The position numbers and the translations under genes are program-made. Of a DNA stretch of 32,933 nt, positions 2,223 through 20,722 are shown in pieces (within the stretch, counting starts at the first letter, position 1; each line of letters opens with the position of its first letter). The stretch is taken from positions 1 to 32,933 of the forward strand of contig JALOOJ010000018.1 in NCBI GenBank assembly GCA_025454475.1. The letters are read 5' to 3'. Below the pieces are notes generated by a model, which saw only the letters and a list, made by a program, of their open reading frames with translations, made no database searches and was not told where the DNA came from. Source of the stretch: Anaerolineae bacterium. GTDB lineage: Bacteria; Chloroflexota; Anaerolineae; B4-G1; SLSP01.

Positions 2223-4886
2223 ATGGCTGCGTGGATGAGATGGCCAACGCGATCGGGAAGGGTCACCCAGAGATTCGGGGCCAATCCTGTCGTCTATGCC
2301 AAGTTTGGCCTGCCCGGACACGAAGGGCTTGACCTCGAGGCGCCTCAGGGAGAGGCGATCTACGCGGTTTGCGATGGTTTGGTGACCGATATCCGTCTGG
2401 ACGGCTTTGCGGATCCACTGACCAGACCGTATGGAAACCAGGTCCGGATACAGCATGCGAACGGCTATGAGTCGTTGTATGCTCACCTCAGCCAGACGGT
2501 AGTGGTGCGGGGCCAAGTGGTCAAGGCTAAGCAGCTTATCGGCTTTTCAGGCAGCACCGGGTACACTGCCGAACCGCATCTCCACTTGGGCGTCAGAAAG
2601 CGTGGGGCCACTGTCAGCGGTGATACGCCTTATCCCTACGATCTCGTGGATCCTGAGCCTCTACTACTTCCTCCGGGCCGCCCTGAGGAAGTTGGTGTGG
2701 TGATCCCCGAGCCTTCGTTGGAGGTCGAGGTCATTGAGACCACACCCGGCTCGGTGGCAGTCCTGGCTGAGCCGAAGAGCGAGTCCGTGACCCTGGCAAG
2801 CGTGGACGCGGGCACGCTGCTTGCTGCGCTGGAGGCCGCGGAGGTCGTTAGGGCAAAGGTTGGTCGCGCCGATCAGTGGCTGTGGGTTAGGACCGGCGCA
2901 GGCGCCGTGGGATGGGTAGCCGGCGCCTACCTGAGGCTGGTTGGCTCGACGGAGGCAGACGAGGGCGACCTTGAGATGGTCCTCTTTGTGGTAGTAGACA
3001 GCGCTGGGGACAACCTGCGCCTGCGCTTCGGACCGGGAATGGATTTCGACGAAGTGGCAAAGGTTCCCGATGGGACGCTACTTAAGGCCCTCGACGACGC
3101 GCATACCGTTCGGACCACGATCGGAAAAGCCGGCGAATGGCTTCATGTCCAGGCGCCGGAGGGCCAGGTCGGGTACTGCGCGGCGTGGTTCCTGGCCTTG
3201 GAGCCGTTCGGCGAGAAGCCCGCTATCGCTCAGCCGCCGGTCGGGACGCCGACGTCCTACGTGATTGTCGAAAGCCCCGGAGCGGGGCTGCGTTTGCGAG
3301 ACGGGCCCGGGACTGAGTATGCGCGGACGTGGTGGATGCCGCATCGAACCGTGTTGGAGTCGCTGGAGGATCCGGTTGCCACAGGCGCGAAGGTGGGCCA
3401 GCGCGGCGCGTGGGTACGGGTGCGCACCCCCTCGCGGCGAGAAGGGTACGTTGCGGCTTGGTACCTGCGCTATCCTGCGCAGGCCGACGAGCGCCCGCGA
3501 GTCGCCCAAGCGGGGGTTCGAACCGGAGAGTCACCCCATATCTTCGGAATCCATGCGCTTGCTGCATCCGATGACCAGATCGTGCGCGACCGGATGCGTG
3601 GTCTCTATCACGAGAGCGGCAAAGCCGGGTGGGTGCTTTTCACTGAGATCTGCGGTCGCCACGCGCGTTCTATTTCCATGAACCCTGAGATACGGCGGCG
3701 CCTGTGGAACTGGGCGGATGCAGGCTACGGCGTGATCATCCGCCTAAACCATGGGTACGAGCCAGGGGGGACGATACCGGAATCGCGACTCTACGATGAC
3801 TTCGCGGCAGCCGCGGCGCGTTGGGTGGAGCTCTATCTCCGAGACAGCAACCGTTCTGCCTCCACCTACACCTGGGCGGTCCAGATCGGGAACGAACAGA
3901 ACAACCCCCGAGAGCATCCTGGCGGCTTTGAGCATCCGACCGAGCATATCACGGCACATCGCTACGCCGATGCGTTCAACCGGACGTATGCCCGGATCAA
4001 GGCTGTACTGCCGAATGCCATTGTCTGTCCGGGGGGCATCGATCCATTTAACTACATGCCGATGCAGAAGCTGGGCAATGTGCGCTGGCGCCCACTGGAT
4101 TACTTCACCGAGATGATGTCGGGCATCGATGCATTGGATGGTGTTGTGCTACACACCTACACTCACGGCCCCGATCCGGCTTACATCACACATCTGAAGC
4201 GGTTTGGCGATGGCAGCGGCCCGCTCGGCGATCACTACTACGACTTTCAGTCGTATCGCACCTTCATGGAGCGTATTCCGGCGAAATGGCGCGACGTCCC
4301 CGTCTACATTACTGAGATGAATCACATTCATCGACCCGCGGGTGAGCACGACCAGGGGTGGGTGGACAAAAACGTGGGGTGGCTGCGTGCCGCCTATGAG
4401 GAGATCGACCGCTGGAACCGCCAGCCCTACGCCCAGCAGATACGCTGCGCGCTCATCTACCGCTGGATGGGTGATGCATGGGCGATCGTCAACAAGCCGG
4501 AGGTCCTCACCGAGTTCAAGCAGGCACTAACCAGCGATTACCGCTGGAGAGGAGCTCCTCAGCGCGAGGCGCATAGCTTTGCTATCACATCGCTGGCGGA
4601 TGGCGGTGCGCGTCCCAGTGAACTCGAGGAGCGCTTCCTGGTGAGCCCTGACGACCTGATGCAGGTCAAAGGGGTCGGCGAGATTGGTGCGGCTGCGCTC
4701 AACGCGGCAGGCATCTACCTGTTTGAGCAACTCGCACGCTTGACATCGGAGCAGCTTGCGGACATCATAGGCGAGACAGGGATCCGTGCGCACTTCCTGA
4801 CGACCTGGCCCCAGCAGGCGCGCTTGGCAGCAGCAGCGGACTGGCCGGCATTACAACACTTCCGTGAGCAGTTACGGGAACCGTGA
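2223..4886 (+). CDS. Multidomain cell-wall hydrolase-like protein: M23 metallopeptidase + 3 SH3b-like + clan GH-A-like glycosidase barrel + C-terminal helix-hairpin-helix
   Basis: ORF 2184..4886; ATG 2223 has SD GGGGAGG. M23: GHEGLDLEAPQGEAIYAVCDG...YAHLSQ...GSTGYTAEPHLHLG. Three SH3b-like segments ending WVAGAYLRL, YCAAWFLAL, YVAAWYLRY. GH-A-like: IGNEQN (acid/base) and VYITEMNH (nucleophile). C-term: DDLMQVKGVGEIGAAALNAAGIYLFEQLA (HhH). Confidence 0.8.
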   Translation: MAAWMRWPTRSGRVTQRFGANPVVYAKFGLPGHEGLDLEAPQGEAIYAVCDGLVTDIRLDGFADPLTRPYGNQVRIQHANGYESLYAHLSQTVVVRGQVVKAKQLIGFSGSTGYTAEPHLHLGVRKRGATVSGDTPYPYDLVDPEPLLLPPGRPEEVGVVIPEPSLEVEVIETTPGSVAVLAEPKSESVTLASVDAGTLLAALEAAEVVRAKVGRADQWLWVRTGAGAVGWVAGAYLRLVGSTEADEGDLEMVLFVVVDSAGDNLRLRFGPGMDFDEVAKVPDGTLLKALDDAHTVRTTIGKAGEWLHVQAPEGQVGYCAAWFLALEPFGEKPAIAQPPVGTPTSYVIVESPGAGLRLRDGPGTEYARTWWMPHRTVLESLEDPVATGAKVGQRGAWVRVRTPSRREGYVAAWYLRYPAQADERPRVAQAGVRTGESPHIFGIHALAASDDQIVRDRMRGLYHESGKAGWVLFTEICGRHARSISMNPEIRRRLWNWADAGYGVIIRLNHGYEPGGTIPESRLYDDFAAAAARWVELYLRDSNRSASTYTWAVQIGNEQNNPREHPGGFEHPTEHITAHRYADAFNRTYARIKAVLPNAIVCPGGIDPFNYMPMQKLGNVRWRPLDYFTEMMSGIDALDGVVLHTYTHGPDPAYITHLKRFGDGSGPLGDHYYDFQSYRTFMERIPAKWRDVPVYITEMNHIHRPAGEHDQGWVDKNVGWLRAAYEEIDRWNRQPYAQQIRCALIYRWMGDAWAIVNKPEVLTEFKQALTSDYRWRGAPQREAHSFAITSLADGGARPSELEERFLVSPDDLMQVKGVGEIGAAALNAAGIYLFEQLARLTSEQLADIIGETGIRAHFLTTWPQQARLAAAADWPALQHFREQLREP

Positions 4887-4889
4887 GGA

Positions 4890-7451
4890 ATGTCAGTGAC
4901 TGACGAGCAACTGTTGCAGCGAATCAATGAAGCGGCGGCGACGGGATCTGAGGTACTGGATCTTAGCTACTGTGAGCTTGCCGCTCTTCCGCCTGAGATC
5001 GCTAAGCTCGATCATCTGCTCGCGCTCGACCTGTGCGGGAATGATCTCGTGGCGCTGCCGCCGCAGATCGGCAGGCTGCGAAACCTCGCTCAACTGGACC
5101 TGCGTCACAACCAACTGGTCGGCCTGCCGCCCGAGATCGGCCTGGTCACCGGCCTCACCTCGCTGGACTTGCTGGGCAACGAGTTGGCTTCGTTGCCGCC
5201 GGAGATGGAGATGCTGACCGGCTTGGCGAGTTTGGATCTCCGCCAGAATCGCATCCGAATCTTCCCGCAGGTGATACTCCGCTTGCTCGCTCTGGAAGAC
5301 CTGCAGCTCTGGGGCAATCCCCTGGTCGCCCTTCCGCTGGAAATCGCCAGACTGGCGCGCCTGAGCTACCTGAACCTGGGTCGCAATGAGATGTCAGAGA
5401 TCCCGCCTGGTGTTTGGCGGTTGGGTAGCCTGGAACGGCTCGTCATTGATCACACCCAGATCCGCGCTATCCCACCGGAAATCAGGAACCTACGGAATCT
5501 TGAGTATGTCGAGTTGCATAACAATCGGCTCAGCGCAGTGCCGCCCGAAGTAGGCGAGCTGGATCGGCTGATGGCATTGCTGCTACACAACAACGCGATT
5601 ACCCATCTGCCCGCCGAGATCGGTGCTCTGCGCAGGCTGCGGCAGTTGGACCTGCATCACAACCAGCTTATCTCACTGCCCATCGAGATCGGCAAGCTTG
5701 AGGGCCTGCATCGGCTTGATCTCACGCAGAATCCGCTTGCGGTGCCCCCGGAGATTCTCGCAAAGACCGAGGCGCCGACGGCGATCATCACTTACTACCT
5801 CCAGCACTTGGGCGGACGGCTGCGCCCGCTCAACGAAGCCAAGATGGTGCTCGTGGGTCAGGGCAGCGTGGGAAAGACCTCCCTGGTCAAGCGTCTGACA
5901 GCCAACACCTACGATCCCTGGGAGCCCAAGACCGAGGGAATCGCTATTCGGCCCTGGCAGGTGCAGGTCAACGACACCGCCATCCAGCTCAATGTCTGGG
6001 ACTTCGGTGGTCAGGAGATCATGCACGCCACGCATCAGTTCTTCCTCACCAAGCGAACGCTCTATCTTCTTGTGCTTGATGGGCGTCTGAGCGAAGAAGA
6101 GAACCGTCTTGAGTATTGGCTCAAGATCATACAGAGCTTTGGCGGAGACTCTCCGGTCGTGATCGTGGCGAACAAGACTGATCTCCACGCCATTGACCTC
6201 GACGTGCGTGGCCTCCAGGTAAAATACCCGCAGATCCGGGCGATCGTTGGTACCTCGTGCGCCACAGGGCTGGGCATCGACAGACTGAAGGCGCGCATCA
6301 TACGCGAGATCACGCGAATGCCCCACTTGCACGATGCGCTCCTGGAATCGTGGTTTGAGGTCAAGCGCGAGATCGAGGCGCTCGACAAGGACTACATCCC
6401 GTACGAGTACTACCTGGAGCGATGCCAGGCTCACGGGATCACGGATGAGCGCAGCCAGCGCACGTTGATCGGCTTCCTGCACGACCTGGGCATTGTCCTC
6501 AACTTCCAGGATGACCCTCGGCTGGAGGATACGAATATCCTGAATCCCCAGTGGGTCACAAACGGCGTCTACCGTATACTGAATGATGAGGGCCTCCGAC
6601 GCAAGAATGGCTGTCTTGCCCGGGCAGATCTCTCGCACATCCTGGATCGGCGCGCGTATCCGCGCCACAGGCACCAGTTTGTTCTGGACATGATGCGCAA
6701 GTTTGAGCTATGCTTCCCGTTTGATGAGGATCGAGGAGATCGGTTCCTGGTGCCTGACCTGCTGAGCAAAGAGGCGCCGGATACCGGGGTCTGGGCCGAT
6801 GCTCTAGCTTTCCAGTACCATTACAACGTGCTTCCTGGGAGCGTGATTTCCAGGTTCATCGTGCGGGCGCACCCCTACCTCGATCAGGACCTCTACTGGC
6901 GCAGTGGCGTTGTGATAACGGACCAGGGCAACTCGGCGCTGGTGCAGGCCGACCGCGAGGAGAAGCGGGTCAGCATCTGGGTGCGCGGCCCCGAGCGTAC
7001 GCGTCGCGCCCTCCTGAGCATCATCCGCTCGCACTTCGATGTCATCCACAGCACGATATCCGGTATACACGTTGCGGAGAAGGTGCCCCTATGGGAGCAT
7101 CCCGAGATCGTGGTCGACTATCAGTACTTGCTGGACCTGGAGGCCATGGGCGAGAAGAGCTTCGTGCCGCCCGGCTTGCGGGAGCGGGTGGATGTGCGCG
7201 CGCTACTCGACGGTGTGGACCTCACCCAGCCTCAGCGCGAAGCTGTCCGATTGCGGCAGGCGCTGGTTGAGCGCTTTGACATCGATGAGCTACGCACGTT
7301 GTGCTATGATCTTGGTGTGGATTTCGAGGCCCTCGACGGACTCGGGAAGGCCGGAAAGTCACGAGAGCTTGTGGCCTTCCTTGAACGGCGTGAGCGGCTT
7401 GACGAGCTAGCCCGGGTTGGACGGCTACACCGCCCTGATGCGCCCTGGTGA
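4890..7451 (+). CDS. Bacterial Roco protein: 11 LRR + Roc GTPase + COR + C-terminal effector-associated/death-like domain
   Basis: 853 aa; eleven consecutive 23-aa LRRs (LPPEIGxLxxLxxLDLxxNxLxx); Roc: GQGSVGKTSLVKRL, VWDFGGQEIMHATHQFF, VANKTDL; COR-like region follows; last ~66 aa LRQALVERFDIDELRTLCYDLGVDFEALDGLGKAGKSRELVAFLERRERLDEL resemble effector-associated domains. Confidence 0.9.
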   Translation: MSVTDEQLLQRINEAAATGSEVLDLSYCELAALPPEIAKLDHLLALDLCGNDLVALPPQIGRLRNLAQLDLRHNQLVGLPPEIGLVTGLTSLDLLGNELASLPPEMEMLTGLASLDLRQNRIRIFPQVILRLLALEDLQLWGNPLVALPLEIARLARLSYLNLGRNEMSEIPPGVWRLGSLERLVIDHTQIRAIPPEIRNLRNLEYVELHNNRLSAVPPEVGELDRLMALLLHNNAITHLPAEIGALRRLRQLDLHHNQLISLPIEIGKLEGLHRLDLTQNPLAVPPEILAKTEAPTAIITYYLQHLGGRLRPLNEAKMVLVGQGSVGKTSLVKRLTANTYDPWEPKTEGIAIRPWQVQVNDTAIQLNVWDFGGQEIMHATHQFFLTKRTLYLLVLDGRLSEEENRLEYWLKIIQSFGGDSPVVIVANKTDLHAIDLDVRGLQVKYPQIRAIVGTSCATGLGIDRLKARIIREITRMPHLHDALLESWFEVKREIEALDKDYIPYEYYLERCQAHGITDERSQRTLIGFLHDLGIVLNFQDDPRLEDTNILNPQWVTNGVYRILNDEGLRRKNGCLARADLSHILDRRAYPRHRHQFVLDMMRKFELCFPFDEDRGDRFLVPDLLSKEAPDTGVWADALAFQYHYNVLPGSVISRFIVRAHPYLDQDLYWRSGVVITDQGNSALVQADREEKRVSIWVRGPERTRRALLSIIRSHFDVIHSTISGIHVAEKVPLWEHPEIVVDYQYLLDLEAMGEKSFVPPGLRERVDVRALLDGVDLTQPQREAVRLRQALVERFDIDELRTLCYDLGVDFEALDGLGKAGKSRELVAFLERRERLDELARVGRLHRPDAPW
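4986..5744 (+). repeat. Tandem 69-bp-period coding repeat (11 LRR units of 23 aa, no indels)
   Basis: Counted from the ORF translation: LPPEIAKLDHLLALDLCGNDLVA ... LPIEIGKLEGLHRLDLTQNPLAV. Confidence 0.85.
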
Positions 7452-13599: not shown

Positions 13600-16026
13600 T
13601 CAGGCGACCTGGAAGATCCGCTGGCGCCGTCGGATCTGGTGCACCGCCCACGATGCTGTCTGGGCAACCAATGGGTCCGTGGAGTCTGTGAGCGACCCCA
13701 GTACTGCCAAGTCCGACTCCTGCCCGATCTGCGCCAGTGTCAGTGCGCTGAGCACCTTGGCATCGGCATTCCCCTCCTGAGCGGCGCGCCGCAGCATCAC
13801 CATCGCGGCCTCCCCAACACCGAGTCCCTCTCCTTGGCGCGCAGCCCAGCCAATCAGCCAGTCGAGTTGGTCTGGCTGGGGTGGGGCGGTGATCATTCCA
13901 GGCGCTTGGTCTGACTCGTCCTGGGCTTGTAGTGCCAGCTCCGCGGCTGAACGCACCATCCACTCCTGATCCTCGCGCGCAATCTCAAGCAGTTTCTCTC
14001 GTGCCCAGTCTGAACTGATGCGGCCCAAGCCGTGCGCTGCCGCTCGACGCACGAACAGGTCGGGATGATGGGCGGCTTCCTCCAGGGCTACTTCACCTTG
14101 AGGGGCGCCAGCCAAGGCCTCGGCGATGACAAGCATTAACGCCGGATCGACCTCGGTCAGCGCACCGGCCAGCGCGGCATACGCCTCATCTGATCCGAGA
14201 TCCAGAAGCGCCTGGGCCGCGCTCTCGCGCACTTGTGCGGTCGCTTGCTCATCACGGAGCACAGACTCGAGCAAGGTCAGGTCGCTGTTCACCTTGCACA
14301 AACCCAAGCCTCGCAGTGCGGCGCCACGGATGTCCGGTGAAGCATTGCGCAGCATCTGGACGAAGAAAGCCCTGGCGCCGTCCCCTGCAACGAGCGCGAT
14401 TGTCCGACCGATGCTCGCCCGTGTCACCGGGTCCAGCGGGTCTATCATGAAGCTGCGCGCCAGGATCTTGATCATCGCACTGCGGCTGGGCGACTCGGGA
14501 TCGGAGACTGCGATCCAGCGGGCTATACGTGTCAAGGGAGTTCTGTCGCCGTCGATCTCCGCTCTTCTGACCAGGTTCTCTACCAGGGGCCCAATGTCCG
14601 CCACCCCAGCGTAGAACTCAGTAAGAACGTGCCACTGGGGGTCCTCCAGGTGAGCCTCAATGATCGCACTGCCGGCCTCCTCACGAACAAGATGGCACGC
14701 TGCCAGGTAGTCGGCAAGAATCGGGTGCGCGATCTGCCAAGTCCGACCATTCTGTCGGAGAAGCCCGCTCCCTGTCAGGATCTTCCGGACAGCTTCTTCC
14801 TGCCTGTGATCTTGTCCCGACCTACCTTCGCGTTGCGCCTCCAGGAGATCGCGCATGTCTTTGTTGGTCAGCACGGGCTGGCCATCGAGGCGCGCCCTGG
14901 CGGATACCGCCATCAAAGCATCCAAAGCAACCTGCTGCGCAGCGTCGACGAACTCCTCAGGCGCCTTCCCTAGCGGCACTGCCCCGATCTTGGTCGCGAT
15001 ATAGCGATCAACTGCTTCGACTGGGCGTGAAGGTAGATCGCCCGTTGCCAGGTGAACCATTGTGCGGATCTGGAGTTCCCACGGGGGAGCGCCAGCGTCC
15101 GCGGCCCTGGCTATGGCTGTAAGGGCCTCATCGTCAGGCGGCTCAGCCACACGTCCAAGCGACGACTGCCACGCTTCGTAGAGCGCCCGCCGCCATTGGC
15201 TGCGTCCCTGCGGGATAACCTCAATCGGCACAAATCCCGCAGCCGTGAGATCGCTGTACCCCTCGGGCGCCGCCGACACCATCCACACGGTGTCCGCAAA
15301 CTCATCGTCGGCTTCCGAGATGCGCAGAGCCACCTCAGCACGGCGGTCTGGGGCGAGTTGGTCCCAGTTGTCCAGGAGCACCAGGCAGGGCTCACGACGA
15401 AGCCGCTGGAGGAGCCACTGGGGTAGGACAGCAGGAAGGTACGCCGCGGCGGCTGTCACGATGGCCTCAGCGGCTGAAGACACCTTGCCCGCCGACGCTG
15501 AAGGGGTGTGGGCCAGGTCGATCCATAACGGGAGACGCCTCCGACCGCCCTTGCCGGCGGGTGCCAGGTTCTGCAGGGCCTGGTGCACCAAGTACACCAT
15601 GGCGGTCGTGCGGCCCGACCCCTGTGTGCCTGAGATGATCAGGCGTGGGTGTCCGGACAACAGCGCGGCCAAGGGGATCTCGACCGTACGCGGCGCGTTG
15701 GCGGCATCAGCCACCGACGCGGGTAGCGGCGCAGGTACCGCGAACGTCGGCGGGATGAACCCAGCACTGAGGTCCGCGGGTTCGAGCAGCAAGGAGTGCC
15801 TGAGTTGTTCATAGAGCGCGCTCAGGTACTTCTCCTCTTGGCTCGCACGCGCGCGACTGCGCCAAGCTGCGATAGGGGTCCACACCTTCTGGACAGCGAC
15901 GCCGATGGCCCGTCGCTGGCCATAGAGGATCGCGGCGATGATCCATGCAAAAGCTACGCCGATCGCCGCAGAGCGGATGTCGAACTGCCAGCCGCCACGG
16001 GCCTGAAGGGCGTCGATGGGATGCAC
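13600..16026 (-). CDS. Membrane-anchored NACHT/STAND-like NTPase with C-terminal HEAT-like repeats
   Basis: 808 aa, GTG start; N-terminal TM (AAIGVAFAWIIAAILYG); P-loop LIISGTQGSGRTT; Walker B PCLVLLDNWDQL; C-terminal HEAT-like helical repeats (DPSAR-style: DIRGAALRGLG, QVRESAAQALLDLGSDEA, FVRRAAAHGLGRI). Confidence 0.8.
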   Translation of the reverse strand: MHPIDALQARGGWQFDIRSAAIGVAFAWIIAAILYGQRRAIGVAVQKVWTPIAAWRSRARASQEEKYLSALYEQLRHSLLLEPADLSAGFIPPTFAVPAPLPASVADAANAPRTVEIPLAALLSGHPRLIISGTQGSGRTTAMVYLVHQALQNLAPAGKGGRRRLPLWIDLAHTPSASAGKVSSAAEAIVTAAAAYLPAVLPQWLLQRLRREPCLVLLDNWDQLAPDRRAEVALRISEADDEFADTVWMVSAAPEGYSDLTAAGFVPIEVIPQGRSQWRRALYEAWQSSLGRVAEPPDDEALTAIARAADAGAPPWELQIRTMVHLATGDLPSRPVEAVDRYIATKIGAVPLGKAPEEFVDAAQQVALDALMAVSARARLDGQPVLTNKDMRDLLEAQREGRSGQDHRQEEAVRKILTGSGLLRQNGRTWQIAHPILADYLAACHLVREEAGSAIIEAHLEDPQWHVLTEFYAGVADIGPLVENLVRRAEIDGDRTPLTRIARWIAVSDPESPSRSAMIKILARSFMIDPLDPVTRASIGRTIALVAGDGARAFFVQMLRNASPDIRGAALRGLGLCKVNSDLTLLESVLRDEQATAQVRESAAQALLDLGSDEAYAALAGALTEVDPALMLVIAEALAGAPQGEVALEEAAHHPDLFVRRAAAHGLGRISSDWAREKLLEIAREDQEWMVRSAAELALQAQDESDQAPGMITAPPQPDQLDWLIGWAARQGEGLGVGEAAMVMLRRAAQEGNADAKVLSALTLAQIGQESDLAVLGSLTDSTDPLVAQTASWAVHQIRRRQRIFQVA

Positions 16027-16034
16027 GGGTGGTG

Positions 16035-16730
16035 TTACCCCTCCTGGGGCTCGACCACCAAACGGTAACCTTGACCGCGCTCGCTTACAATCCGCTCGGG
16101 GTCCCTGGGGTCCTGTTCAATCTTCTGGCGCAAGTACCAGATGTAGAGCTTCAGGTAGTCTCGGCGATTGCTATACTCGGGCCCCCATACTCTCCGGAGC
16201 AGTGTGTCATGGGTGACGGTGCGACCTGCGTCCTGGACTAAGGCCGACAACAACTGGAACTCGGTCGGCGTCAGAGTGACCTCGCGGTTGTCGATTTTCA
16301 CCTCATGTGTGTCCAGGTTCACATGGAGATTCCCCGTGACGAATACCGTCTGCTCGCCGCGGGCGCGACGGGCGCGCGAGAGGGCCGCCTTAACTCGAGT
16401 CACGAGCTCTTTGTAGCCGAAGGGTTTGACGATGTAGTCATCGGCACCCAACCCCAGGCCGTAGGTGATGTTGTGTTCGTCACCCAACGCGGTCAGGAAC
16501 AGCACAGGGGCATCCGTGATGCGACGGAGGGCTTCATAGACGTGCCAGCCATCCATGTCGGGCATGAGGATGTCCAGAAGGACAAGGTTGGGTGTGCCCT
16601 GGCGAGCAAGTCTGAGGCCTACCTCACCACTGTTGGCGGTCTGCACGGCGTAACCGGCGCGTTCCAGGAGTAGCTGTACCAACTGAGCCAGGGCCTCATC
16701 GTCCTCAACCAGCAAGATCGTCTCGCTCAT
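16035..16730 (-). CDS. OmpR/PhoB-family response regulator
   Basis: Receiver: MSETILLVEDDEALAQLV...LVLLDILMPDMDGWHVYEAL...VLFLTAL...GADDYIVKPF; winged-helix: LTPTEFQLLSALVQDAGRTVTHDTLLRRVWG...VSERGQGYRL. Confidence 0.95.
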   Translation of the reverse strand: MSETILLVEDDEALAQLVQLLLERAGYAVQTANSGEVGLRLARQGTPNLVLLDILMPDMDGWHVYEALRRITDAPVLFLTALGDEHNITYGLGLGADDYIVKPFGYKELVTRVKAALSRARRARGEQTVFVTGNLHVNLDTHEVKIDNREVTLTPTEFQLLSALVQDAGRTVTHDTLLRRVWGPEYSNRRDYLKLYIWYLRQKIEQDPRDPERIVSERGQGYRLVVEPQEG

Positions 16731-16931: not shown

Positions 16932-19604
16932 TTATGGGACGATCTGCTGAATCTCGGTCAGGAATCGCAGCGTTTCGACGCCGATGGAGAGGGCGAGCTG
17001 CGGGTCTGTCGTTTGGTCCAGGAACACGGCGACGGCGTAGCGGGGCAGGTCGGCCGAATTGAGACCCACAAACCACGCCTGTTGTCGGTTCAGACCTGCC
17101 AACGATGTGCCGAGATGACCCACCGCACCAGCGTACGGGGTCAGTAGATGGCGGACCGAATCGGCGATGTCAGCGTCGACGACACGTGTAGCCGTATCCA
17201 ACGGAAGCGTCGCGCATCCGTCGAAAGGAGCGCGCAGTAGGCTTAGGTTGGGGCGAAGCCCGTCGTTGCCCAGTGTTGCCATCGCCTGAGCAAGCTGGAG
17301 CGGGGTAATGAGCAACCGGCCCTGGCCCAGCGCATCGATGCGTGCGTCGAGCTGCTGCCCGCCGAGGTCCGCAGCCACCGTTGGCAGCACCAGACTCGGC
17401 GCGTCGAGGAACCCCCAAAGAGCCAGTGCCTCCATAACATCCGCGTCGCCCATCCGGCGCGCAGCCGCCACGAAGGGCGCGGGACACGCTGCGGCAAGCG
17501 CAGCCGACCAACCGTCGTCGACTGGTGGCACCAGGCACCCGAAAACCAGGCCGTTGAGGTCCACCGTTGCCGAGATGGCTCCCTGCGGCTTCAGAGACGG
17601 ATCACGTTGTAGCGCACTCGCCAGGATGAAGGGTTGAAGGCTCGTGCCTGGCTGGGCAAGGGCCTGCGTGGCCCGGTTCAGGAACGGAGAGTTCTCCGCT
17701 GAGCTCAACGTGGGCCACATTGCGGCCACCGAGGCCGAGTCATACACAGGGCTTGATGCCAGAGCCAGGATCTCACCGGTGCGCGTGTCAACGACGATGG
17801 CCGCGCCGGTATGGGGGGCGAGGCTACGTTGTGCGTGCTGCTGAAGCCTGCTATCAAGCGTCAACCGAACGTCACGGCCCACCGGATCAATGTGCAGGAG
17901 CTTGTGCCGTGCTGAGGACCAGGGAGACAGGTCGACCTCGCCACGCAGCCGCGCGTCACATGCGGCTTCGATGCCATCCGTGCCGTACGCGATCGTGGCG
18001 AAGCCGACAACGGGAGCCGCTTCGGGCTGGGAGTACACCCTCGTCACGAAGCCCTGCGCGTCCATCACGATGTCGGCAATGACCTGAGCGTTGCGATCGT
18101 AGATGCGTCCCCGGCGGATGCGAGACTCAGCCACGATGAAGCGCGGGTTACCGCGATGGCTTTGCAGCTCTTCGACTCGTACGAATGACCAGAGGCCGGT
18201 GAAGAGAGCCAGCCCTGCCAGGAGTGCGACGAGGGCCTGCCCAAGACGGGACGCTGTAACTCTTAGCGGTCGTGTGACCGTTGGTGCGAGCGATAGGCTT
18301 AGCGGAAGAGGGTGGGGGGCGGACAGATTCAGCAGCAGGCCTGCCGCAAACAGCATTGTCACGAGTGACGACCCTCCATGGCTCACAAACGGGAAGGTGA
18401 CCCCGGTGATGGGGATTAACTTGGCATTGCCGCCCGCAATAACGAACGTTTGGACGCCGATTAACGCAGCAATGCCTCCGGCGACGAGCGACTCAAAGAC
18501 CGACTCGGTCCTCTGCGCTATTCTGATGGCTCGGGCAATCAGTGCAGCGATCAGCAGCAGCAGGCTCACAGTGCCCACAAGGCCAAACTCCTCAGCGATG
18601 GCGGCATAGACGAAGTCGGTATGCACGGCGGGGATTAACGTAGGCGCGCCCTGCCCGAGGCCCTGACCGAAGAGCCCCCCCGCCCCAAATGCAAAGAGCG
18701 ACTGGAGGATCTGGAAAGCACGATCGGCCTGCTCAGGTGCCCATGGGTCAAGCCAGATGCTGACGCGCAGGGCCACACGGTCTGACAGCAGGTAACCCGC
18801 CACGGCGACCGGCGCAAACAAGCCAAGACTCAGCAGCGCATAACCGGCGTTGCCCCAGGCCAGGTAGATCATCATCACGAACGTAAGGTAGAAGAGAAGC
18901 GCGGCGCCAAGGTCCTGTTGCCATCCCAGAAGCAGGAGCGCCACCCCAACCATAGCCATCATCGGTCCGAGGACCACCATCCAGGTGGATCCCCCGGCGG
19001 CTCTGACGCTTGTGAGATCGCGCTTATCGGCGAGATAGGCCGACAGGTAGATGATGAGCAGTAGTTTGAGGGGTTCCGAGGGCTGCACGAACAGGCCGAA
19101 GGCCCCGAGCCAGAGCTCCTGTCCGAAGCCCGAGGGGTTGACGCCGAATACGAGAGTCGCGCCGAGAAGCGCAATACCTGCGGACAGAAGCGAGTAGCGA
19201 TAGCGCCGAAGAGTCCGGGTGAGCTGAGGGGTGAGCGCCGTTGCCACGAACACTCCGCAGCCGATCAGCAACCAGAGCACCTGGCGATAGAGCAGTGCGG
19301 GTGCCAGCCGCGCCTGCAGCACAAGCCCCCAGCCGGTCAGTAGTGCCACAAGCGCCACGATAATGGGATCGTAGTGGGTTAGCCTTGTCCTCAGGACCCA
19401 CTGGACGGTACCCCAAGCAGATAACCAACCGATGCCGACCACCAAAAGCTGGGCCGTGGTCAGGCTCAGCGGATAGGGCGCGAAGTGCAGCGTGACGATG
19501 CCTGACAGCACGAAGAGCGCTGCACTGGCGAAGAGCAGCGATCCGGCAGCCCGCTCGGAGAGCGTGAATCGGAGTCGGTACCGGGAGAGCGGACGGGTCC
19601 CCAT
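16932..19604 (-). CDS. SEDS-family (FtsW/RodA/SpoVE) polymerase fused to class-B PBP transpeptidase-like domain
   Basis: ORF 16932..19688, likely ATG at 19604 (MGTRPLSRYRLRF). SEDS: GFGQELWLGAFGLFVQPSEPLKLLLIIYLSAYL, LLGWQQDLGAALLFYLTF, VHTDFVYAAIAEEFGLVG, GVTFPFVSHGGSSL. PBP: RIRRGRIYDRNAQVIAD, GAAIVVDTRTGEILALASSPVYD, NRATQALAQPGTSLQPF, AWFVGLNS. Confidence 0.9.
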   Translation of the reverse strand: MGTRPLSRYRLRFTLSERAAGSLLFASAALFVLSGIVTLHFAPYPLSLTTAQLLVVGIGWLSAWGTVQWVLRTRLTHYDPIIVALVALLTGWGLVLQARLAPALLYRQVLWLLIGCGVFVATALTPQLTRTLRRYRYSLLSAGIALLGATLVFGVNPSGFGQELWLGAFGLFVQPSEPLKLLLIIYLSAYLADKRDLTSVRAAGGSTWMVVLGPMMAMVGVALLLLGWQQDLGAALLFYLTFVMMIYLAWGNAGYALLSLGLFAPVAVAGYLLSDRVALRVSIWLDPWAPEQADRAFQILQSLFAFGAGGLFGQGLGQGAPTLIPAVHTDFVYAAIAEEFGLVGTVSLLLLIAALIARAIRIAQRTESVFESLVAGGIAALIGVQTFVIAGGNAKLIPITGVTFPFVSHGGSSLVTMLFAAGLLLNLSAPHPLPLSLSLAPTVTRPLRVTASRLGQALVALLAGLALFTGLWSFVRVEELQSHRGNPRFIVAESRIRRGRIYDRNAQVIADIVMDAQGFVTRVYSQPEAAPVVGFATIAYGTDGIEAACDARLRGEVDLSPWSSARHKLLHIDPVGRDVRLTLDSRLQQHAQRSLAPHTGAAIVVDTRTGEILALASSPVYDSASVAAMWPTLSSAENSPFLNRATQALAQPGTSLQPFILASALQRDPSLKPQGAISATVDLNGLVFGCLVPPVDDGWSAALAAACPAPFVAAARRMGDADVMEALALWGFLDAPSLVLPTVAADLGGQQLDARIDALGQGRLLITPLQLAQAMATLGNDGLRPNLSLLRAPFDGCATLPLDTATRVVDADIADSVRHLLTPYAGAVGHLGTSLAGLNRQQAWFVGLNSADLPRYAVAVFLDQTTDPQLALSIGVETLRFLTEIQQIVP

Positions 19605-19742
19605 TGTGGTGGCCGGTCTAGTCCGGGTCCGGACTTCGTACTGCCGCGAGCGTGTGCTGTCTGCGAGGTGCCCGGAGCGTGGCTGCATCGGTAGCCGCGA
19701 CTAGAGCAGCTCGAAGGGCGTCATAGGATCGGAACTGCCCAG

Positions 19743-20117
19743 TCACGCCGATGCCTTCCCCTGGGCGTTGGGATCCGAGTCGTCTTGGACCACAAACTCC
19801 AGTGGGGCATGGCACAGGCCGCACCCCAGTCTTGGGTCCCGTACCGTGCCCGTGCTGAGCGAGCAGGTGGCTGAGATAACCATGTGTGGATGTGACCAGA
19901 ATCGCCAGCGCGACCTACCGATCTCCGCGTGAAGGGTCAGTGTCTTGCAGGCGTTGGCCCGCCTGATCTCGGGGACGGGGCAGGTCTGGCAGAGGCTCGA
20001 AGTCCATTTCGCCTGATCCGGTGACCCATCCAGGAGGTGACAGAGCTCGCGGACATCCGGCTTACGATGTGCGTCGGCGTAGTAGTAGGGGCATGCCTGG
20101 CCATAGGGTGTCAGCAT
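19743..20117 (-). CDS. Cys-rich conserved-looking hypothetical protein (possible metal/Fe-S binding)
   Basis: Start taken at ATG 20117 (MLTPYGQACPYYY), 5 nt after upstream gene stop; contains LCQTCPVPEIRRANAC and GCGLCHAP. Confidence 0.6.
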   Translation of the reverse strand: MLTPYGQACPYYYADAHRKPDVRELCHLLDGSPDQAKWTSSLCQTCPVPEIRRANACKTLTLHAEIGRSRWRFWSHPHMVISATCSLSTGTVRDPRLGCGLCHAPLEFVVQDDSDPNAQGKASA

Positions 20118-20122
20118 GGTGT

Positions 20123-20644
20123 TCAGGCGTGCGAGTAGCTCTGCACCATCCGGCGGTTGATGTAAATGAGCCGCGCTTGGGAGGGAAGGTCGGAGGTGCA
20201 AGTGGACAGGAAGTGGACGCGCGCGTCTGTGACCGGGAAGAAGAGGCCCTTCCAGAAGTCGAGGAAGTTCATAAGCCTGGCATCGCTCAGGAAGGGGGCG
20301 TTTCCACGAACAACGGCGATCCCGAGGTTAACCATGACCGTTTCGGTGTGGGGCGCCGCGCGGAACTGCTCCACAGCCGAATCGTCAGGGAAGATCAGGA
20401 ACTGCAGCCGCTCCCGCACCAGGACGACCTCATTGACGCGACTTGTCGGGAGTCCGGTGAAGGCCCAGGGAGCGATCCGCGCTTCACTGACCGACATGAC
20501 ATCCAGTCCGTCCTGGTTGAGGTAGTTGTTCGGGTTCCCCAACGTCATCAGTAGTCCGTCGACGTACTGCAGATCATTGGCTGCCAGGACTCGATGCTTC
20601 TGTACCGGCGACTCACCCTGGGTTGCTGGTACCAGTCGGCCCAT
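20123..20644 (-). CDS. Hypothetical protein, likely cotranscribed with Cys-rich gene
   Basis: ATG 20644 preceded by AGAAGGAGG; MGRLVPATQGESPVQKHRVLAANDLQYVDGLLMTLGN; sits between ligA and Cys-rich ORF on the same strand. Confidence 0.6.
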   Translation of the reverse strand: MGRLVPATQGESPVQKHRVLAANDLQYVDGLLMTLGNPNNYLNQDGLDVMSVSEARIAPWAFTGLPTSRVNEVVLVRERLQFLIFPDDSAVEQFRAAPHTETVMVNLGIAVVRGNAPFLSDARLMNFLDFWKGLFFPVTDARVHFLSTCTSDLPSQARLIYINRRMVQSYSHA

Positions 20645-20722
20645 ATGGCCTCCTTCTTCTTCTAGGGCATACCCGCCAAAGGACACGGAGCGATCTGGAT
20701 AGATCCGCTACGCCCGTGGGGC

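Follow-up and report, generated by a model that had tools for sequence, protein, structure and literature searches.

A SEDS polymerase fused to a class B penicillin-binding protein without catalytic motifs in Anaerolineae

A stretch of 32,933 nucleotides from an Anaerolineae bacterium (contig JALOOJ010000018.1; hereafter "the window") encodes, in one open frame, a SEDS polymerase of the FtsW/RodA type and a class B penicillin-binding protein (PBP), in which none of the class B motifs SxxK, SxN and KTG/KSG is found. The reading we favour, with a probability of roughly 0.7, is that this protein is an extra SEDS polymerase whose pseudo-transpeptidase has been kept as a presumed activator or scaffold, with other PBPs providing the cross-links. 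The gene and its parts, all on the minus strand, are:

16932 to 19604, minus strand: SEDS-pseudoPBP fusion gene, one open frame of 890 amino acids, stop codon at 16932-16934
18318 to 19295, minus strand: SEDS (FtsW/RodA-type) polymerase domain, residues 104-429, Pfam FTSW_RODA_SPOVE
18612 to 18623, minus strand: HTDF with the putative catalytic Asp330, residues 328-331
18180 to 18272, minus strand: long helix between the SEDS and PBP parts, residues 445-475, from AlphaFold2 secondary structure
17868 to 18113, minus strand: PbpA-type pedestal, residues 498-579, Pfam PBP_dimer_2
17007 to 17807, minus strand: transpeptidase-fold domain, catalytically degenerate, residues 600-866, Pfam Transpeptidase
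17634 to 17645, minus strand: TSLQ in the SxxK position, residues 654-657
17535 to 17537, minus strand: Cys690, invariant in 86 of 86 degenerate relatives
17481 to 17489, minus strand: ACP in the SxN position, residues 706-708
17109 to 17117, minus strand: HLG in the KTG position, residues 830-832

The three Pfam domains (FTSW_RODA_SPOVE, PBP_dimer_2 and Transpeptidase) all score over their gathering cut-offs within the 890-residue frame, which confirms the original prediction of a SEDS core and a PBP domain in a single frame; an in-frame ATG upstream, at 19688, is a possible alternative start. With 224.9 bits against the PF01098 profile (cut-off 26.4), the polymerase domain belongs to the SEDS glycosyltransferases. 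Since it scores below the NCBIfam equivalog cut-offs for both ftsW (246.3 of the required 337.5 bits) and rodA (187.4 of 336.7 bits), it would be classed by profile as a SEDS of its own kind, neither FtsW nor RodA proper. The SEDS motif with its aspartate is retained as predicted: HTDFVYAAIAEEFG lies at residues 328-341 and contains Asp330 within HTDF, and the QPSE..K motif (Glu177, Lys180) is there as well. Judging by its position, the helix at residues 445-475 is presumably the membrane anchor of the PBP. The architecture of a class B PBP follows from the combination of pedestal and transpeptidase fold, according to both Pfam and a fold match to PbpA.

The positions of the catalytic motifs were set by alignment to Mycobacterium tuberculosis PbpA (3un7) and an Eggerthella PBP (4mnr), which places PGTSLQ opposite PGSTFK, ACP opposite SCN, and HLG opposite KTG; the coordinates given for the degenerate motifs in the original prediction proved exact. 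A Ser/Lys pair displaced to another place was ruled out by sequence: residues 491-890, i.e., the PBP part, contain no SxxK or SxN anywhere, and their lysines number two (568 and 672). The proposal that the fused PBP is a pseudo-enzyme is thus strongly supported.

The loss is shared by a large set of relatives. All 60 relatives searched first match the query, and those of the window's own order are mostly fused, with the motifs lost. The best 80 named relatives from Anaerolineae, labelled Anaerolineae, Thermoflexales, Anaerolineales, Ardenticatenia, Promineifilum, Aggregatilineales or Chloroflexi/Chloroflexota, are all without the motifs (one, L193, ends before the motif region); an isolate, Leptolinea tardivitalis YMTK-2 (L200, 4815-7439, plus strand), and a complete genome, that of Leptolinea sp. 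HRD-7 (L196), are among the degenerate relatives. In a class-wide alignment of 105 PBP parts, all seven catalytic residues (S and K of SxxK, S and N of SxN, K, T and G of KTG) are present in 10 rows; none of the remaining rows has the lysine of SxxK or the asparagine of SxN, and KTG is kept in a single non-active row, L043, a copy with a broken head. When the phylum was searched with an active query, all 30 loci obtained were found to retain SxxK, SxN and K[TS]G, and 28 of them come from other classes. The SEDS family, at E<1e-100, occurs in 44 of 121 sampled genomes of the class (an approximate count), six of which have active-type PBPs by motif reading (likewise approximate). As only about one third of the sampled genomes carry it, the family is not essential to the Anaerolineae.

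The copy with the broken head is a case of its own. This PBP (L043, 1128-2267, minus strand, genome G053) lies beside an intact SEDS gene in a family that is otherwise active; its stretch from SxxK to SxN is replaced by a repetitive insert rich in Glu, Leu and Gly, and KTG is retained; the DNA there contains a tandem repeat. It looks like a recent independent breakage or an assembly fault.

A PBP tree calculated without the motif columns unites the degenerate PBPs in one clade (ultrafast bootstrap 100, SH-aLRT 99), which is nested among active relatives of the class; the nearest active branch is L114, with weak placement (90/15). The single clade persists (96/86) when L220 and two Leptolinea proteins are added, and SEDS trees agree with the PBP trees for most rows. 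As far as the trees can tell, a single ancestor within the class apparently lost transpeptidase catalysis, long ago. Several independent losses were considered and are disfavoured by the PBP trees, though the SEDS trees put L220 elsewhere: its SEDS part falls among SEDS proteins of other classes (AU p 0.041 against one clade). L220 itself (4785-7445, plus strand) is a fused degenerate protein with a PBP part that groups with the degenerate clade.

In an alignment with fused and stand-alone relatives, which had been suggested as a check, the degenerate PBPs of both kinds share the loss. Degenerate PBPs are often separate genes adjoining their SEDS gene; these unfused genes share the strand of the SEDS gene and are mostly adjacent to its frame or overlap it. 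On the tree, fused degenerate genes are interspersed with unfused ones, with seven changes between the two states, some of which stem from contig ends; the fusion counts are approximate, as a few "split" rows end at contig ends (e.g., L040, L045). It follows from this mixture, and from the position of the unfused genes beside SEDS, that catalysis was lost before fusion took place. Fusion is later than the motif loss and incidental to it, and the idea that the loss was caused by, or tied to, fusion is ruled out by pairs that are degenerate yet unfused.

The dead domain is nevertheless maintained. In close pairs, dN/dS is 0.08-0.31 for the PBP part where dS is finite and 0.06-0.20 for the SEDS part, with several dS values near saturation; the degenerate PBP domain is under purifying selection. 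An AlphaFold2 model (40-row alignment) has a mean pLDDT of 87.5, with blocks of the PBP part mostly at 82-98, and its best solved matches in Foldseek are PbpA-type PBPs, with TM-scores of about 0.75-0.80 by target length. The transpeptidase fold is therefore predicted to be intact despite the lost residues. What differs is the distribution of constraint. For 37 active PBPs, mean column entropy comes to 0.445 (pedestal) and 0.390 (head), compared to 0.435 and 0.517, respectively, for a thinned set of 53 degenerate PBPs. The difference of differences amounts to 0.137 for the full sets and to a mean of 0.132 over resamples (bootstrap interval 0.093-0.177), and it stayed above zero in all 300 resamples. 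By this measure, constraint in the degenerate clade appears to have moved from the head to the pedestal that contacts SEDS. In several further lineages (e.g., L145, L149, L150), profile matches even stop near the lost SxxK, with SEDS and pedestal still matching.

The SEDS partners of degenerate PBPs retain Asp330 and Glu177 in 168 of 168 cases and Lys180 in 167 of 168, some genomes being counted twice through two records each. Such invariance, together with the constraint on the pedestal, would be expected of a working polymerase for which the pedestal, not the catalytic head, matters; it is consistent with activation rather than proof of it, and conservation of the pedestal would fit activation or mere complex assembly alike. 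The head, however, has not been deleted; in most lineages it has kept its fold, purifying selection, Cys690, Cys707 and Pro708, so that it may have a role beyond dead weight.

Cross-linking could be supplied from elsewhere in the cell. The window's genome encodes six transpeptidase domains, including that of the fusion protein: a PBP2 over its equivalog cut-off, in which SVFK and KTGT are seen, an FtsI-like PBP with SVFK, SLN and KSGT, and three class A PBPs, all with SxxK and SxN and two of them with a visible KTGT. Since other PBPs with intact motifs are encoded, another PBP can supply the cross-links, and the earlier suggestion to this effect is plausible on the basis of gene content. The genome also has a RodA-like SEDS gene and part of another SEDS gene. 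With these other SEDS and PBP genes in the genome, the fusion is an extra SEDS unit and not the sole polymerase for elongation or division.

In Actinobacteria, the locus order is fhaA-fhaB-rodA-pbpA-pknAB. The window's protein is of the PbpA type by homology (the tree with active relatives) and by the adjacency of the SEDS gene. Like the actinobacterial RodA-PbpA pair, it belongs to a family with adjacent SEDS and PBP genes, and genes for FhaA or FHA-domain proteins lie further upstream in part of the relatives (22-24 of 80). M. tuberculosis PbpA (PDB 3UN7) is also among the closest solved folds and has a PBP_dimer_2 pedestal. In contrast, actinobacterial PbpA is an active penicillin-binding transpeptidase, whereas the PBP of the window is without catalytic residues and is fused to its partner. 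Two downstream neighbours are kept in the window's closer relatives:

16035 to 16730, minus strand: orphan OmpR-type response regulator
13600 to 16026, minus strand: membrane protein of 808 amino acids with HEAT repeats and a P-loop-like motif (by eye)

On the upstream side, a frame with several cysteines (19743-20201, minus strand) resembles one in the relative L156, and a protein of about 190 amino acids without a Pfam match (20123-20686, minus strand) is conserved in 10 relatives. At 47 of the 80 loci (L151-L230), a gene resembling MTA phosphorylase (PF01048) stands directly upstream of the SEDS gene, for no obvious reason.

The combination of a SEDS protein that keeps its catalytic Asp with a class B PBP partner is shared with RodA-PBP2 and FtsW-FtsI of Escherichia coli, in which the PBPs, however, are active cross-linkers; unlike in these systems, RodA, PBP2 and an FtsI-like protein have genes of their own in the genome of the window, apart from the fusion. 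E. coli RodA was shown to be stimulated by the membrane helix of PBP2 in a purified fusion, and natural SEDS-PBP fusions have been mentioned (PMC10449877). The natural and engineered fusions of that study likewise form a single reading frame, but their PBPs are active. The interface between the pedestal and ECL4 has been proposed as the activation site, where contact drives activation, and Bacillus subtilis PBP2B and Staphylococcus aureus PBP1 are required although their catalysis is not (PMC8078798). Similarly, catalytically dead SpoVD of Clostridioides difficile partially supports division, for which its SEDS partner SpoVE is needed (PMC12713402). As proposed here for the Anaerolineae protein, these PBPs are needed for a SEDS partner, with transpeptidase activity being dispensable. 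The difference is that their catalysis was removed in the laboratory, by point mutation or beta-lactam, whereas here it was lost in nature and throughout a large clade. In the open-licence literature, we found no published description of a class B PBP that is naturally dead and retained alongside a SEDS protein, and nothing on Chloroflexota/Chloroflexi with FtsW.

Four other explanations were weighed. The most serious, although unlikely, is that the dead head has taken on a new job, i.e., that it binds glycan strands, lipid II or a regulator such as the product of the FHA or response-regulator neighbour, and that this instead of SEDS activation is the reason for its retention. The preserved fold, the purifying selection and the invariance of Cys690, Cys707 and Pro708 (the last in 85 of 86 aligned degenerate rows) would suit such a role, as would the FHA-domain genes upstream in some relatives. 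However, conservation in the head has dropped below that of the pedestal, whereas active relatives show the opposite order, and in several lineages the head has decayed so far that profiles no longer recognize it, although SEDS and pedestal are still there. The cysteines might be structural only, as the pair is seen in several active relatives too. The same residues could be taken to suggest that the domain is still an enzyme for cross-linking or for some different acyl transfer, its chemistry having been taken over by other residues, for instance by Cys707 as nucleophile: among the 86 aligned rows of the degenerate set, Cys707 is conserved in all, as is Cys690. This is the less probable of the two by a wide margin, given a PBP part with two lysines and neither SxxK nor SxN. 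Moreover, Cys707 corresponds to the central residue of SCN and occurs in many active relatives, and is therefore probably ancestral and structural; Cys690 and Cys707 probably form a disulfide, which we read as ancestral.

It is also conceivable, with a very low likelihood that slightly exceeds that of alternative catalysis, that the whole pair has left peptidoglycan synthesis, with the SEDS protein being inactive, working on another polymer or acting as a transporter, and the PBP merely stabilizing it. Scores below the FtsW and RodA equivalog cut-offs and the presence of canonical SEDS and PBP genes in the same genome would agree with this, but Asp330, Glu177 and other SEDS signature residues are as invariant as in the partners of active PBPs. 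Finally, the genome is a draft in 369 contigs, which might raise the suspicion of sequencing or assembly errors or of a decaying pseudogene. For the clade, this is already refuted and has a negligible chance: sequencing error at all three motifs is excluded because the best 80 named relatives have also lost them, the same losses recur in dozens of independent assemblies (the L. tardivitalis isolate and the complete Leptolinea genome included), the frames are open, and dN/dS is well under 1.

We therefore return to the reading of an extra SEDS polymerase with a retained pseudo-transpeptidase. The ancestor would have been a SEDS/class B PBP pair of the RodA-PbpA type, whose PBP would have lost transpeptidase catalysis once within the class and then been retained. 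Alongside canonical FtsW/RodA, the pair may act as an additional glycan polymerase, in which the membrane helix and the pedestal of the PBP could keep SEDS active in the manner of RodA-PBP2 and FtsW-FtsI, and the dead head could serve as a structural spacer or docking surface. Strands made by the SEDS part of the fusion would be cross-linked by other PBPs, and the repeated gene fusions would do no more than lock in a 1:1 ratio of the partners. The notion of a built-in activator thus survives in part: an activating role fits the shift of constraint to the pedestal as well as the literature, but the loss is older than fusion and not tied to it. With somewhat better than even odds, a large clade of one class would possess a SEDS polymerase whose class B PBP is permanently dead and serves purely for allosteric activation, a unit blind to beta-lactams via its own PBP, with activation and cross-linking fully separated.

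The indispensability of class B PBPs beyond their catalysis has so far been studied with point mutants, while here the separation is natural. In one clade of Anaerolineae, PBP fold, pedestal and 1:1 pairing have persisted without any catalytic residue, which provides a natural test of the idea that the partner is mainly a switch for the polymerase. A comparison of conserved surfaces between active and dead clades can map activation residues, and the protein itself, being fused already, could be taken as it stands into biochemistry and cryo-EM; the cultured L. tardivitalis has a relative of it. If the proposed reading is true, these bacteria would have a polymerase unit whose own PBP offers beta-lactams no target.
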